From positions 3,680,001-3,744,000 of the forward strand of contig NZ_JAVIZX010000001.1 in assembly GCF_031453675.1 (NCBI RefSeq): DNA of 64,000 nucleotides, given 5' to 3'. This stretch comes from Paracidovorax wautersii (GTDB lineage Bacteria > Pseudomonadota > Gammaproteobacteria > Burkholderiales > Burkholderiaceae_C). Shown one piece after another: positions 30,755 to 34,412 of the stretch; positions within the stretch are counted from its first letter, which is position 1, and the number at the start of each line of letters is the position of its first letter. The position numbers were made by a program, and so were the translations under genes. Under the pieces are notes generated by a model, which saw only the letters and a program-made list of their open reading frames with translations, was not told where the DNA came from and made no database searches.

Positions 30755-32143
30755 TCAGTGGGCCGCACTGCCCACCTTGGCGCCCGGCTTCACCCGCTCC
30801 AGCAGCGCCAGCATGGCGGCTTCGATGCGGTGCAGGGCTTCAGCCGTGTGCCCTTCGAAGCGCAGCACCAGCACCGGCGTGGTGTTGCTGGCGCGGATCA
30901 GCCCGAAGCCGTCCGGCCAGTCCACGCGCAGGCCATCGATGGTGCTGATCTGGGCCGGCGCGGCAAAGGACTCGCCCGCCAGCGCCTGCAACTCGGCGGT
31001 CAGGCGGTGGGGTTCGCCCTCTTCGCAGGTCACGTTCAGCTCGGGGGTCGAGTGGCTGGTCGGCAGCGCGTTCAGCACGGCGCCCGGGTCGCTTTCGCGG
31101 CTCAGGATCTCCAGCAGGCGGCAGCCGGCGTAGGTGCCGTCGTCGAAACCGAACCAGCGCTCCTTGAAGAAGATGTGGCCGCTCATCTCGCCGCCCAGGG
31201 GCGAGTCGAGCTCCTTCATGCGCGCCTTGATGAGCGAATGGCCCGTCTTGAACATCACCGGGGTGCCGCCGGCCTCGGCGATGGCAGGGGCAAGGCGCTG
31301 CGTGCACTTCACGTCGAACAGGATGGAGCCGCCCGGCACGCGGGAGAGCACGTCCTTGGCGAACAGCATCATCTGGCGGTCGGGGAAGATGTTCTGGCCG
31401 TCCTTGGTGACGATGCCCAGACGGTCGCCGTCGCCGTCGAAGGCCAGGCCCAGTTCGGCGTCGCTCGACTGCAGCGTGGCGATCAGGTCGCGCAGGTTCT
31501 CGGGCTTGCTGGGGTCGGGATGGTGGTTTGGGAAGTTGCCGTCCACCTCGGAGAACAGCTCAATCACCTCGCAGCCCAGCGCGCGGAAGATGCCGGGGGC
31601 CGAGGCGCCGGCGATGCCGTTGCCGCTGTCCACCACGACCTTCATCGGGCGCTCCAGCTTCACGTCGCCGACGATGCGGGCCACGTAATCCTGCAGCACA
31701 TCGGCTTGGCGGACCTTGCCGCCGGGCACCAGTTGCCAGCTTTCCTCTTCCATCGTGCGGCGCAAGGCCTGGATTTCGTCGCCGTAGATGGCGCGGCCGG
31801 CCAGCACCATCTTGAAGCCGTTGTAATCCTTGGGGTTGTGGCTGCCCGTCACCTGGATGCCGCTCTGGCACAGCGTGTGGGCCGCGAAGTACAGCATGGG
31901 CGTGGTCACGGCACCGATGTCGATCACTTCGATGCCGGCGTCGACCAGGCCTTCGATCAGCGCGGCGGACAACGAAGGTCCCGAAAGACGTCCATCGCGG
32001 CCTACCGCCACCACGGACTGGCCTTCAGCCCGCGCCGCGGTACCAAACGCCCGTCCGAGGCCACGGGCCACGTCTTCATTCAGAGTGCTCGGCACGATGC
32101 CGCGGATGTCGTAGGCCTTGAAGATCGCAGGAGTCGGTTGCAC
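30755..32143 (-). CDS. algC: Phosphomannomutase/phosphoglucomutase
   Basis: The 462-residue alpha-D-phosphohexomutase interconverts hexose 1- and 6-phosphates for LPS or exopolysaccharide precursors. It has the phosphoserine loop VTGSHNPKDYNGFKM, the metal loop AFDGDGDRLGIV, the sugar loop GGEMSGHIFFKE and the phosphate loop RASNTTPVLVLRFEG. The GTG at 32143 is preferred because AAGGA sits eight bases upstream and the protein then starts at the conserved PAIFKAYDIRG; an upstream frame extends to 32176 without support. It is read with waaA. A 700-bp gap with small RNAs lies upstream. Confidence 0.94.
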   Translation of the reverse strand: MQPTPAIFKAYDIRGIVPSTLNEDVARGLGRAFGTAARAEGQSVVAVGRDGRLSGPSLSAALIEGLVDAGIEVIDIGAVTTPMLYFAAHTLCQSGIQVTGSHNPKDYNGFKMVLAGRAIYGDEIQALRRTMEEESWQLVPGGKVRQADVLQDYVARIVGDVKLERPMKVVVDSGNGIAGASAPGIFRALGCEVIELFSEVDGNFPNHHPDPSKPENLRDLIATLQSSDAELGLAFDGDGDRLGIVTKDGQNIFPDRQMMLFAKDVLSRVPGGSILFDVKCTQRLAPAIAEAGGTPVMFKTGHSLIKARMKELDSPLGGEMSGHIFFKERWFGFDDGTYAGCRLLEILSRESDPGAVLNALPTSHSTPELNVTCEEGEPHRLTAELQALAGESFAAPAQISTIDGLRVDWPDGFGLIRASNTTPVLVLRFEGHTAEALHRIEAAMLALLERVKPGAKVGSAAH

Positions 32144-32431
32144 GAGAAATCCTTCTGGTTGGGAGAGCGGCAGCACAGCCGGTCAGTGAAGAGGTGCCGC
32201 ATCGTCCGTGGCAATAGCGGGTATACCCGAAGAGGCATGAGGCTGCGGCATTGTAGGAGACGCCCACAGGCGGCGCCGTTCGGCAGCGTAGGCCAATGCC
32301 GCATTCGGCAGCCCCCCGCAGCGGCTCTGGCATCACAAGCGGCTTGCACACGCGGCGCTCCGCACTTCGGCGCTATTTCCGCCGATTCCGCACGCCGGCA
32401 CCCATGCCCCGCGGGGAGGGATACGATGGCT
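32144..32431. other. Intergenic region between algC and the small-RNA array
   Basis: This stretch has no convincing gene. It should contain the leftward algC promoter. Near its right end, GGGATACGATGG (TACGAT at 32422-32427) is a possible -10 element for the first small RNA, which would start about 32432. No repeat copy or known riboswitch was recognised. Confidence 0.5.
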
Positions 32432-32510
32432 CCCGTCGGTACCTCGTGCCGACACCCTCCCTTTGCTCGACGAGCAAATTTGGCCCGCCCCGTGCGGGCC
32501 TTTCTTTTTA
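32432..32510 (+). ncRNA. Candidate small RNA, unit 1 of a tandem array
   Basis: About 79 nt fold into three hairpins. Stem 1 is GTCGGTAC/GTGCCGAC with a CTC loop (32435-32453). Then comes a C-rich single strand ACACCCTCCC. Stem 2 is TTTGCT/AGCAAA (32462-32478). The terminator stem GGCCCGC/GCGGGCC (32482-32500) is followed by TTTCTTTTTA. The same plan, with different bases but paired stems, recurs twice downstream. Transcription from left to right is inferred from the terminator polarity. Confidence 0.75.
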
Positions 32511-32553
32511 GGGCGCTTGTCCTACAGGTGGCGCCAGGGCGGGCGGCGCATTT

Positions 32554-32636
32554 TCAGCACGCCGACGTGTCGGCACTCCCTCTCTTGCGGCTGTGTCCGC
32601 AGGTTCGGCCCGCGCCTGTCGCGGGCCTTCTTTTGG
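32554..32636 (+). ncRNA. Candidate small RNA, unit 2 of a tandem array
   Basis: Three hairpins in the same order as unit 1: stem 1 GCCGAC/GTCGGC (32561-32574), a C-rich linker ACTCCCTCTC, stem 2 TGCGG/CCGCA (32586-32601), and a terminator GGCCCGCG/CGCGGGCC (32607-32627) followed by TTCTTTTGG. Stem bases differ from units 1 and 3 but pairing is kept. The ACTCCCTCTC linker is complementary to purine-rich ribosome-binding sites. Confidence 0.75.
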
Positions 32637-32675
32637 GATCGGCTCCTACGGCCAGCCCGCTCGCCCCATCGCACA

Positions 32676-32751
32676 CTGGAGCTGCCGATGTCCATCGGTG
32701 ACCCTCGTGACCATCGCGAGTTCAGCCCGCCGTGAAGGTGGGCTTTTTTTG
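32676..32751 (+). ncRNA. Candidate small RNA, unit 3 of a tandem array
   Basis: The third unit has stem 1 CCGATG/CATCGG (32685-32698), a linker TGACCCTCG that overlaps the next stem, stem 2 CTCGTG/CGCGAG (32704-32720, one G-U pair), and a terminator AGCCCGCC/GGTGGGCT (32724-32744) followed by seven T. Unit 3 keeps the plan with a shorter linker. A 74-codon reading frame starts 112 bp downstream, so this terminator also insulates it. Confidence 0.75.
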
Positions 32752-32862: not shown

Positions 32863-33087
32863 ATGGCCACCGACCCCAAAGACCATCCCGTCCACGCCGT
32901 TCCCGACGAGCTCCCCCGCCCGCCGGGAGATCTGCCGCCATCGAGCGAGCCGCCCGGCCAACCGGTTCCGCCGGCTCCAGCACCCGCACCGCAGCCCGGT
33001 CTGGCATCGCCCGCCGGCCCGAACCCCTACTCCGGCGAGGTCGAGAACGAAGCCGCAGACCCGGTAGGCGCGCCGCCTCGGCTGTGA
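32863..33087 (+). CDS. Small proline-rich hypothetical protein
   Basis: The 74-codon frame starts ATGGCCACCGACCCC with AAGGA nine bases upstream. The product (MATDPKDHPVHAVPDELPRP...) is about one-third proline, has no hydrophobic segment and no Cys, and ends GAPPRL. It should be disordered and cytoplasmic. It is not recognised as any known family. The good ribosome-binding site and clean start after the small-RNA array support translation; composition in GC-rich DNA argues for caution. Confidence 0.5.
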   Translation: MATDPKDHPVHAVPDELPRPPGDLPPSSEPPGQPVPPAPAPAPQPGLASPAGPNPYSGEVENEAADPVGAPPRL

Positions 33088-33371
33088 GGGTCCCCGCCGG
33101 CTGATCGCCAGGCGCTCAACGTCCAGACCGCAGTCCAACGCTCCGAGCGCGTCCGTACGTTCTCTCGGAAAGCAGGACACCTCGCTCCAGGCTGCCGGGC
33201 AATGTCCCTCGCCGGGAGGCGTAGAGCGCTGCCTGAGATAATCGGGGCCTTCGCCGCTGCTGACAGGCTGCCTTCTGGCGCCTGCCCACCCACCACCGAC
33301 CGCCATGGCCCTCGCCTCCTGCGATGGGCATGGCACCGGGGCAGCGCCCCGACCCGGACCCGAGATTGACC

Positions 33372-34412
33372 ATGGCGCCGAACCCCGCGCAACCCCAGGC
33401 CTATGCCGACCCGCACAGCCCCTGGCGCATGTCTGTTGCGCCCATGATGGACTGGACTGACCGGCACTGCCGTTATCTGCACCGGCTGCTCACGCAGCGC
33501 ACCTTGCTCTATACCGAGATGGTGACGACTGGCGCGCTCATCCATGGTGATGTGGAGCGGCATCTGCGCTTTTCCGTGGACGAGCACCCCGTGGCGCTGC
33601 AGCTCGGGGGCAGCGAGCCGTCCGATCTGGCGCAGGCCGCCCGGCTCGGCGCGCAATGGGGCTACGACGAGATCAACCTCAATTGCGGCTGCCCTAGCGA
33701 GCGGGTGCAGCGCGGCGCGTTCGGCGCTTGCCTGATGAACGAGCCGCAGCTGGTCGCCGACGGCGTGAAGGCCATGGTGGATGTGGTCGACGTGCCAGTC
33801 ACGGTCAAGCACCGCATCGGCATCGACAAGAACGAGGACTATGGGTTCGTCCGCGACTTCATCGGCACGGTGGCCGAAGCGGGTTGCCAGGTCTTCATCG
33901 TGCATGCACGCAATGCCTGGCTCAAGGGCCTCTCTCCCAAGGAGAACCGCGAGATTCCACCGTTGCGCTACGGCACCGTGGGCCAGCTCAAGCAGGACTT
34001 TCCGCACCTGACCATTGCCATCAACGGAGGCATTGCCACGGACGAGGTGGTGCTCGAACAGCTGGCACAGGTGGACGGCGTGATGGTGGGGCGCGAGGCC
34101 TACCACAACCCCTGGTGGCTGGCCCGGTGGGACCGCCTGTTCTACGGCGCTCCGGACAACGCCCTCACCCGGGACGAGGTCGAGGCGCGCATGGTGGATT
34201 ACATGGAGCGGGAGGCGGCCCAGCACGGCACCCACTGGTATGCCATCGCCCGGCACATGCTGGGGCTGCGCCATGGGCTGCCCGGCGCCCGGCGCTGGCG
34301 TCAGGTGTGGAGCGACCACCGCCTCAAGCACCTGCCCGCGCGCGAGGTGGCCGCCCACGCGCGTGGCGCGCTGGCGCCGCAGCGCCCCGAACCGCTCACC
34401 GCAGACGCTTGA
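33372..34412 (+). CDS. dusA: tRNA-dihydrouridine(20/20a) synthase
   Basis: The 346-residue flavoenzyme reduces uridine to dihydrouridine at tRNA positions 20/20a. DusA hallmarks are all present: RMSVAPMMDWTDRHCRY, LLYTEMVTTGALIHG, YDEINLNCGCPSERVQ with the catalytic Cys, GLSPKENREIPPL and VDGVMVGREAYHNPW. The ATG at 33372 is used; an upstream start at 33324 adds a Pro/Asp leader. The 284-bp gap before it contains no clear gene, with GATAAT near 33238 as a possible -10 element. Its 3' end overlaps the end of the convergent GGDEF/EAL gene by 17 bp. Confidence 0.95.
   Translation: MAPNPAQPQAYADPHSPWRMSVAPMMDWTDRHCRYLHRLLTQRTLLYTEMVTTGALIHGDVERHLRFSVDEHPVALQLGGSEPSDLAQAARLGAQWGYDEINLNCGCPSERVQRGAFGACLMNEPQLVADGVKAMVDVVDVPVTVKHRIGIDKNEDYGFVRDFIGTVAEAGCQVFIVHARNAWLKGLSPKENREIPPLRYGTVGQLKQDFPHLTIAINGGIATDEVVLEQLAQVDGVMVGREAYHNPWWLARWDRLFYGAPDNALTRDEVEARMVDYMEREAAQHGTHWYAIARHMLGLRHGLPGARRWRQVWSDHRLKHLPAREVAAHARGALAPQRPEPLTADA

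Follow-up and report, generated by a model that had tools for sequence, protein, structure and literature searches.

A tandem array of three structured small RNA units in Paracidovorax wautersii and its dispersed relatives, an apparently undescribed family of sibling sRNAs

What is specified by three short structured units lying one after another in a single intergenic gap of Paracidovorax wautersii: regulatory RNAs in their own right, members of a known RNA family, extragenic repeats or the leader of the genes downstream? The units occupy the forward strand between algC and a 74-codon frame in the window, the whole stretch of 64,000 nucleotides analysed here. We consider it fairly probable that they are three separately transcribed, trans-acting small RNAs (sRNAs) of about 67–76 nt, belonging to one multicopy family and repressing via an anti-Shine-Dalgarno (anti-SD) linker. 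The features of the locus are as follows.

30755–32176, reverse strand: algC (phosphoglucomutase/phosphomannomutase; Pfam), divergent flank
32376–32380, forward strand: TTTCC upstream of unit 1, at −59, partly resembling the motif found ahead of its closest relatives
32422–32427, forward strand: −10-like hexamer TACGAT of unit 1 (upstream comparison, by eye)
32435–32509, forward strand: unit 1, sRNA (terminator scan, fold, accessibility, sequence)
32435–32453, forward strand: unit 1 stem 1
32454–32461, forward strand: unit 1 linker, ACCCTCCC
32462–32478, forward strand: unit 1 stem 2
32482–32500, forward strand: unit 1 terminator, T-run to 32509
32520–32525, forward strand: TCCTAC element of unit 2, part of TTGTCCTACA, first base 41 nt ahead of stem 1
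32549–32554, forward strand: −10-like CATTTT of unit 2, a weak match 23 nt past TCCTAC (by eye)
32561–32634, forward strand: unit 2, sRNA (found by covariance model R1, which excluded it)
32561–32574, forward strand: unit 2 stem 1
32575–32583, forward strand: unit 2 linker, ACTCCCTCT
32584–32603, forward strand: unit 2 stem 2
32607–32627, forward strand: unit 2 terminator, T-run to 32634
32644–32649, forward strand: TCCTAC element of unit 3, first base 40 nt ahead of stem 1
32672–32677, forward strand: −10-like CACACT of unit 3, 22 nt after TCCTAC (by eye)
32684–32750, forward strand: unit 3, sRNA (R1 26.9 bits, fold z −4.61)
32684–32699, forward strand: unit 3 stem 1
32700–32703, forward strand: unit 3 linker, GACC
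32704–32720, forward strand: unit 3 stem 2, absorbing part of CCCTC
32724–32744, forward strand: unit 3 terminator, T-run to 32750
32863–33087, forward strand: 74-codon proline-rich frame, flank (no Pfam match)
33324–34412, forward strand: dus (tRNA-dihydrouridine synthase; Pfam), flank

All three units follow one plan (stem 1, CU-rich linker, stem 2, intrinsic terminator), with stem 1-to-stem 1 spacings of 126 bp (units 1 and 2) and 123 bp (units 2 and 3). The original prediction of three tandem structured units with their own terminators is upheld by terminator scan, folds and sequence; its three-hairpin plan stands, but not its lengths of 76–83 nt, the stem-to-T-run spans being 67–75 nt. 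Scanning of 701 bases, where 0.5 would be expected, gave four terminator-like sites: each unit has one, and unit 2 has a further, overlapping alternative. Forward-strand fold z-scores with flanks are −3.74, −2.02 and −2.01 for units 1, 2 and 3, and −5.8, −3.17 and −4.61 for the trimmed units, each of which forms exactly three hairpins at minimum energy. On the reverse strand the folds are weaker for unit 1 (z −2.28) and unit 3 (−0.97); the reverse-strand fold of unit 2 reaches −3.03, better than its own forward strand with flanks.

Rfam at gathering threshold has no match in the window, and a DNA search of a plasmid collection gave no match to the units. The DNA search of 60 related genomes returned short similar stretches at other loci, some of them terminators alone, and several whole units (L002, L003, L004 and L007 in other genomes; L010 in the own genome). 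Covariance model R1, built from unit 1, L002, L003 and L004, was run over 17 genomes of the genus. Unit 1, part of the model by construction, scores 89.5 bits, and unit 2, held out, 35.2 bits (E 5.5e-7 genome-wide). Unit 3, also held out, reaches 26.9 bits (E 5e-6 in 128 kb), a value within the genome-wide background of R1, and it is assigned to the family because of its place, fold and upstream element. R1 matches were listed down to E 0.021, with those below about 34 bits inspected in part; by eye, the inspected ones lack stem 2 or the linker, except for L207, L208 and the units. Further copies were found by R1 in the own genome and in seven other genomes of the genus. R1 also picks a different candidate small RNA, CTTCTCCCTCCCTCC followed by a terminator, at L205 (G002), L193 (G008) and L194 (G007).

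Twenty-one genus copies were aligned (A5) and used to build a second model, R2, which scores them at 47.4–82.1 bits, with no other listed match in the genus above 35.9 bits and no new copy there, a gap that is partly circular as R2 was built from those same copies. They are spread over 8 of the 17 genomes, and the seven in the own genome are the most of any. In 250 genomes of the family, six beyond G000 and G001 match R2 at E ≤ 1e-5. Eight of the 12 rows outside the genus were accepted by eye as copies, in G125 and G226 (one other genus) and in G138 (a third genus); the remaining four (L246, L247, L248 and L256), among them every row of the other three matching genomes, were dropped, the three-hairpin plan being missing by eye. 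One genome beyond G000 and G001 matches, weakly, among 349 of the order, where L260 (G423) scores 40.8 bits and stands outside the 29 accepted copies, and 299 genomes of the phylum gave no R2 match; in the family, order and phylum searches alike the filters were stricter, so that weak matches are lost. The family thus appears narrow and patchy in distribution. Its 29 accepted copies score 45.7–82.1 bits with R2, 21 of them having built it. A covariance-model search of related genomes had been proposed with the original prediction, and it has uncovered a sibling family, with 21 copies in the genus and 8 elsewhere; these dispersed copies, and the TCCTAC element described below, are both absent from that prediction.

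That the structure is under selection, bases changing while pairing is kept, had been claimed and is borne out across the 21 copies by covariation, folds and RNAalifold. In A5 (19 distinct rows), 97.8% of 372 pair cells are paired. Double-sided changes occur in 16 of 20 pairs against 6.3 in shuffles (0 of 500 shuffles as high), a count that leans towards the R1 structure, on which A5 was aligned; a slid-register control gives at most five pairs with double changes. RNAalifold, predicting afresh on A5, returns the same three helices, with 19 pairs, 15 of them showing compensatory change. Single-sequence, alignment-free folding yields three hairpins in every one of the 29 accepted copies (median z −5.25), as against 65 of 2900 shuffles; the copies include orthologues, and so are not independent, and the structure-aware models that supplied most of them bias the set towards three hairpins. 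Covariation and related copies were thus both found in relatives, and selection for RNA structure in the units is supported.

Could the units belong to RF02278 (Betaproteobacteria toxic sRNA), the Rfam group to which the original prediction had pointed? They would then be divergent members of these double-hairpin RNAs carrying one more stem at the 5′ end. Among Rfam families it is RF02278 that matches units 2 and 3 best, with E values of 0.002 and 0.027 in 501 bases, its parts come in the same order (CU-rich segment, hairpin, UUC, GCCCG terminator), and it too is described, in the part of PMC5688073 at hand, as exposing CU-rich stretches predicted to cover ribosome-binding sites. However, cmscan gives the three units 27.1, 22.6 and 19.7 bits, far under the gathering cut-off of 50, and scores at this level are unspecific, 11 of 14 control genomes matching at E ≤ 1, none above the cut-off. 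The own genome has one true RF02278 copy elsewhere (60.7 bits, with UUGUCUCCU), and such a copy is present in each of the 17 genus genomes. The reciprocal test also speaks against membership: of 30 RF02278-type loci (17 above cut-off, 13 below), 25 match R2 at the position of the RF02278 RNA, with 13.4–31.2 bits, and five have no match there, against 45.7–82.1 bits for accepted copies. The U(U)GUCUCCU-type motif is absent before the first hairpin of the units, which have ACCCUCCC, ACUCCCUCUC and GACCCUCG where the RF02278 copy of the own genome carries UUGUCUCCUCC. We therefore regard RF02278 membership as unlikely. A weaker RF02278-type group (UUGUCUCCU plus a longer first hairpin) occurs in other genus genomes (L170–L181) and in the own genome (L222, at about 4048999); several of these RNAs follow an alanine-rich reading frame that, by eye, we take to be phasin-like.

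Upstream of stem 1, a region that no search model covered, the hexamer TCCTAC starts 39–41 nt before the stem in 10 of 20 non-redundant loci from three genera. Shuffles give a mean of 0.033 (largest 1) for this hexamer and 6 as the best for any hexamer in 1000 shuffles; the latter control accounts for the choice of hexamer and not for that of the −50 to −28 window, which was picked after inspection, as was the grouping of 29 copies into 20 loci. TCCTAC is absent from the other 10 loci, unit 1 included, with near misses at a similar position in L243 (TCCGAC), L255 (TCTGAC), L253 (TCTTAC) and L215 (GCCTAC). In the cases read by eye, a −10-like hexamer lies 22–23 nt after TCCTAC. The arrangement TCCTAC-N22-CACACT is common to unit 3, L010/L224 and L226, and this pattern, picked after inspection, occurs once in the 64 kb window against 0.03 expected. 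A putative second upstream class, recognized by inspection (L002–L004, L187–L190, L201–L203 and L208), has TAnnAT near −10 and, between about −50 and −62, either TTTCC or ATTCC. Scanning with the sigma-70 consensus found no promoter by the units, and units 2 and 3 have −10-like hexamers of poor quality. Separate transcription of these two is nevertheless likely, because in each case TCCTAC follows the terminator of the previous unit; it is probable for the units in general.

Four of the second-class copies (L187–L190, in four genus genomes) are followed, about 20–150 nt past the sRNA, by a second conserved stretch (AGTAAGGG..CATG.CCAAAATGG..TCCACC) with its own terminator, which may be a further small RNA or a short open frame.

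R2 was run on 40 loci (dus loci of the own genome and 16 relatives, algC loci of 16, and the seven named Acidovorax-type loci L013–L019) and found units at the window's own locus only, other matches reaching at most 17.9 bits apart from a 21.4-bit reverse-strand match inside the array itself; in the stretches fetched, the array was thus not found at algC or dus of the 16 genus relatives. A home-made terminator script, applied to some algC loci, found no units outside the window's own locus, and dus is next to algC in none of 96 other algC loci. Among the best 80 loci, the nearest named AlgC is that of Acidovorax sp. SUPP3334 (93%), which places the organism with the Acidovorax-like Comamonadaceae. 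The 74-codon frame has a homolog in G125 (L261:10995–11192; 58% over 74 aa), 1.2 kb from an sRNA copy, and a partial relative upstream of dus in G001 (L124:2964–3110; 47% over 49 aa). Pairwise identity among units 1–3 is 41–52%, with closest copies at 79% for unit 1 (L002), 61% for unit 2 (L224) and 52% for unit 3 (L213). As the units are nearer to copies elsewhere than to each other, the array is not a fresh tandem duplication. Genes beside related copies encode an HpcH/HpaI aldolase, a Crp-family regulator, a PilJ-domain protein and a patatin (Pfam); the Crp-family gene, presumably fnr-like, lies about 120 nt upstream of copy L215:1682–1747 (own genome 1007381–1007446) on the same strand. 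In G125, about 100 nt downstream of copy L243, a worn second unit (L265:9718–9780) retains TCCTAC, stem 1 and a terminator without stem 2, so that the tandem layout recurs in another genus.

Dispersed copies, loci that differ between species and tandem arrangement in two genera (the window and L265 of G125) are also what extragenic repeats or mobile hairpins without a regulatory RNA role would give, and BRE, a betaproteobacterial repeat of ~90 bp, is likewise tandem, 75–91 bp long and GC-rich (PMC3110155, compared here by description). The divergence of the units from one another and their closer likeness to copies elsewhere do not fit a fresh repeat, however, and low copy number, an upstream element at fixed distance and compensated pair changes also count against this origin, which we consider improbable. 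Least credible, and hardly to be entertained, is a cis-acting leader in which three serial terminators stop or attenuate read-through to the 74-codon frame and dus, since, although the units lie upstream of forward-strand genes and each ends in a terminator, related copies adjoin unrelated genes, the dus stretches fetched from 16 other genus genomes have no units, and both unit 2 and unit 3 begin afresh with a TCCTAC element of their own.

In 26 of 29 copies, orthologues included, an anti-SD pentamer (CCTCC, CTCCC or CCCTC) is predicted to be accessible, with a mean unpaired value of 0.7 or more, against a mean of 8.7 copies in shuffles of the same sequences, in agreement with the accessible anti-SD segment originally proposed. 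Exposure of the C-rich stretch in every unit was part of that proposal and holds for units 1 and 2 (mean unpaired 1.0 and 0.91) but not for unit 3 (0.40), where CCCTC is half inside stem 2. The other copies without an accessible pentamer are L214, in which the linker has become GGACAGCAGAC, and L253 (ACCATCCCC). Many copies also have a CU-rich loop on stem 1.

Target prediction with the linker segment, also suggested with the original prediction, was less rewarding: exact complements of two seeds occur across the whole genome at 20 sites against 25 for the reversed control and at 8 against 14, giving no enrichment. Seed-complement sites lie 3–14 nt ahead of long open frames at L272, L280, L290 and L294. 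The last, one of five non-sRNA AGAGGGAGT sites, precedes by 7 nt an ATG that reads into a gene we take, from its N-terminal sequence, to be pyrD, whose probable start is 43 nt from the site; this is a lead, one such site being, by our own estimate, within what chance could give.

Structure, covariation, copy number, the fixed upstream element and predicted accessibility are computed; from here on we infer. Transcription would start close to stem 1, as suggested by −10-like hexamers ending 6–7 nt before it, and would end at the terminator after stem 2. TCCTAC at about −40, which units 2 and 3 share with about half of the non-redundant copies, is a putative site of one activator; unit 1 and its closest relatives have a different sequence upstream. 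The exposed CU-rich linker (ACCCUCCC, ACUCCCUCUC), like the loop of stem 1 in many relatives, would mimic the 16S anti-Shine-Dalgarno sequence and could pair with G-rich ribosome-binding sites of target mRNAs, so that translation would be blocked, possibly with the help of an RNA chaperone.

A broader proposal, which we consider rather doubtful, is a Comamonadaceae-specific anti-SD regulon. One regulator would read TTGTCCTAC at −40 and fire dispersed and tandem siblings whose seeds vary slightly (ACCCUCCC, ACUCCCUCUC, no anti-SD in L214), together acting as a graded global translation brake beside the RF02278 sRNA, with the second promoter class answering another signal. If true, a second anti-SD sRNA family would stand next to RF02278 in the same cells, and several siblings per genome under two promoter classes would offer a natural system for near-redundant sRNAs sharing a target code, whose controlling regulator the fixed TCCTAC element would make findable by DNA pull-down. 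The main interest lies in the common −40 element and in two promoter classes ahead of the same RNA body. The units appear to represent a real, apparently undescribed sibling sRNA family of a known kind; a literature search gave no Comamonadaceae family of this kind among the matches listed, which is weak evidence of novelty as most subscription papers were outside its reach.

Among known systems, CcsR1–4 of Rhodobacter sphaeroides are likewise numbered sibling sRNAs from one place, reportedly tandem and with CU-rich motifs. They are, however, processed from the 3′ UTR of the ccaF1 mRNA with involvement of RNase E (PMC8625941, in part), whereas here every unit ends in a terminator of its own and probably has a separate promoter.

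RF02278-type RNAs include ncS03, ncS05, ncS27 and ncS62 of Burkholderia cenocepacia, with S17 of Bordetella pertussis being similar. As far as the available parts of PMC5688073 and PMC11722255 describe them, they share with the units a CU-rich unpaired 5′ part, a hairpin, a GC-rich terminator, predicted pairing to ribosome sites and several copies per Burkholderia genome. They differ in having the UUGUCUCCU motif and two hairpins and in reportedly not being tandem (PMC5688073, in part), the units having three hairpins and standing in tandem. S17 represses one target directly, and for many others it has sites close to their ribosome-binding sites (PMC11722255, same parts). RIT11b of Burkholderia is described as acting on dusA (section of PMC10175445); by analogy dus had been considered as a cis target here, an idea dropped because RIT11b is ncS06, which is without an RF02278 label in the portions of PMC10987360 and PMC5688073 available.

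The closest parallel in plan is NmsRA/NmsRB of Neisseria (NgncR_162/163), tandem genes with three stem-loops and a UC-rich anti-SD single strand between SL1 and SL2 (PMC5362039 and PMC9973317, both in part). All units of the array have the three hairpins, with the CU-rich single strand full in units 1 and 2 and partial in unit 3. In N. meningitidis, NmsRA/B have separate starts and predicted terminators, and their anti-SD sites have been studied by mutation (PMC5362039, in part); here each unit has a terminator, and units 2 and 3 have the upstream element at a fixed position, with putative starts. On the same partial descriptions, NmsR comprises two copies, 70–78% identical, whereas the array has three, 41–52% identical, plus dispersed copies; its second anti-SD site is in the SL2 loop, whereas the second CU-rich site here, where there is one, is in the loop of stem 1; and TCCTAC before about half of the loci is a further difference. 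No Rfam family named NmsR is among the 19 Rfam matches to the units, and the two are likened here by description. The matching plan makes trans-acting repression at ribosome-binding sites likely, and the array is likely to work as the NmsR/NgncR siblings do.
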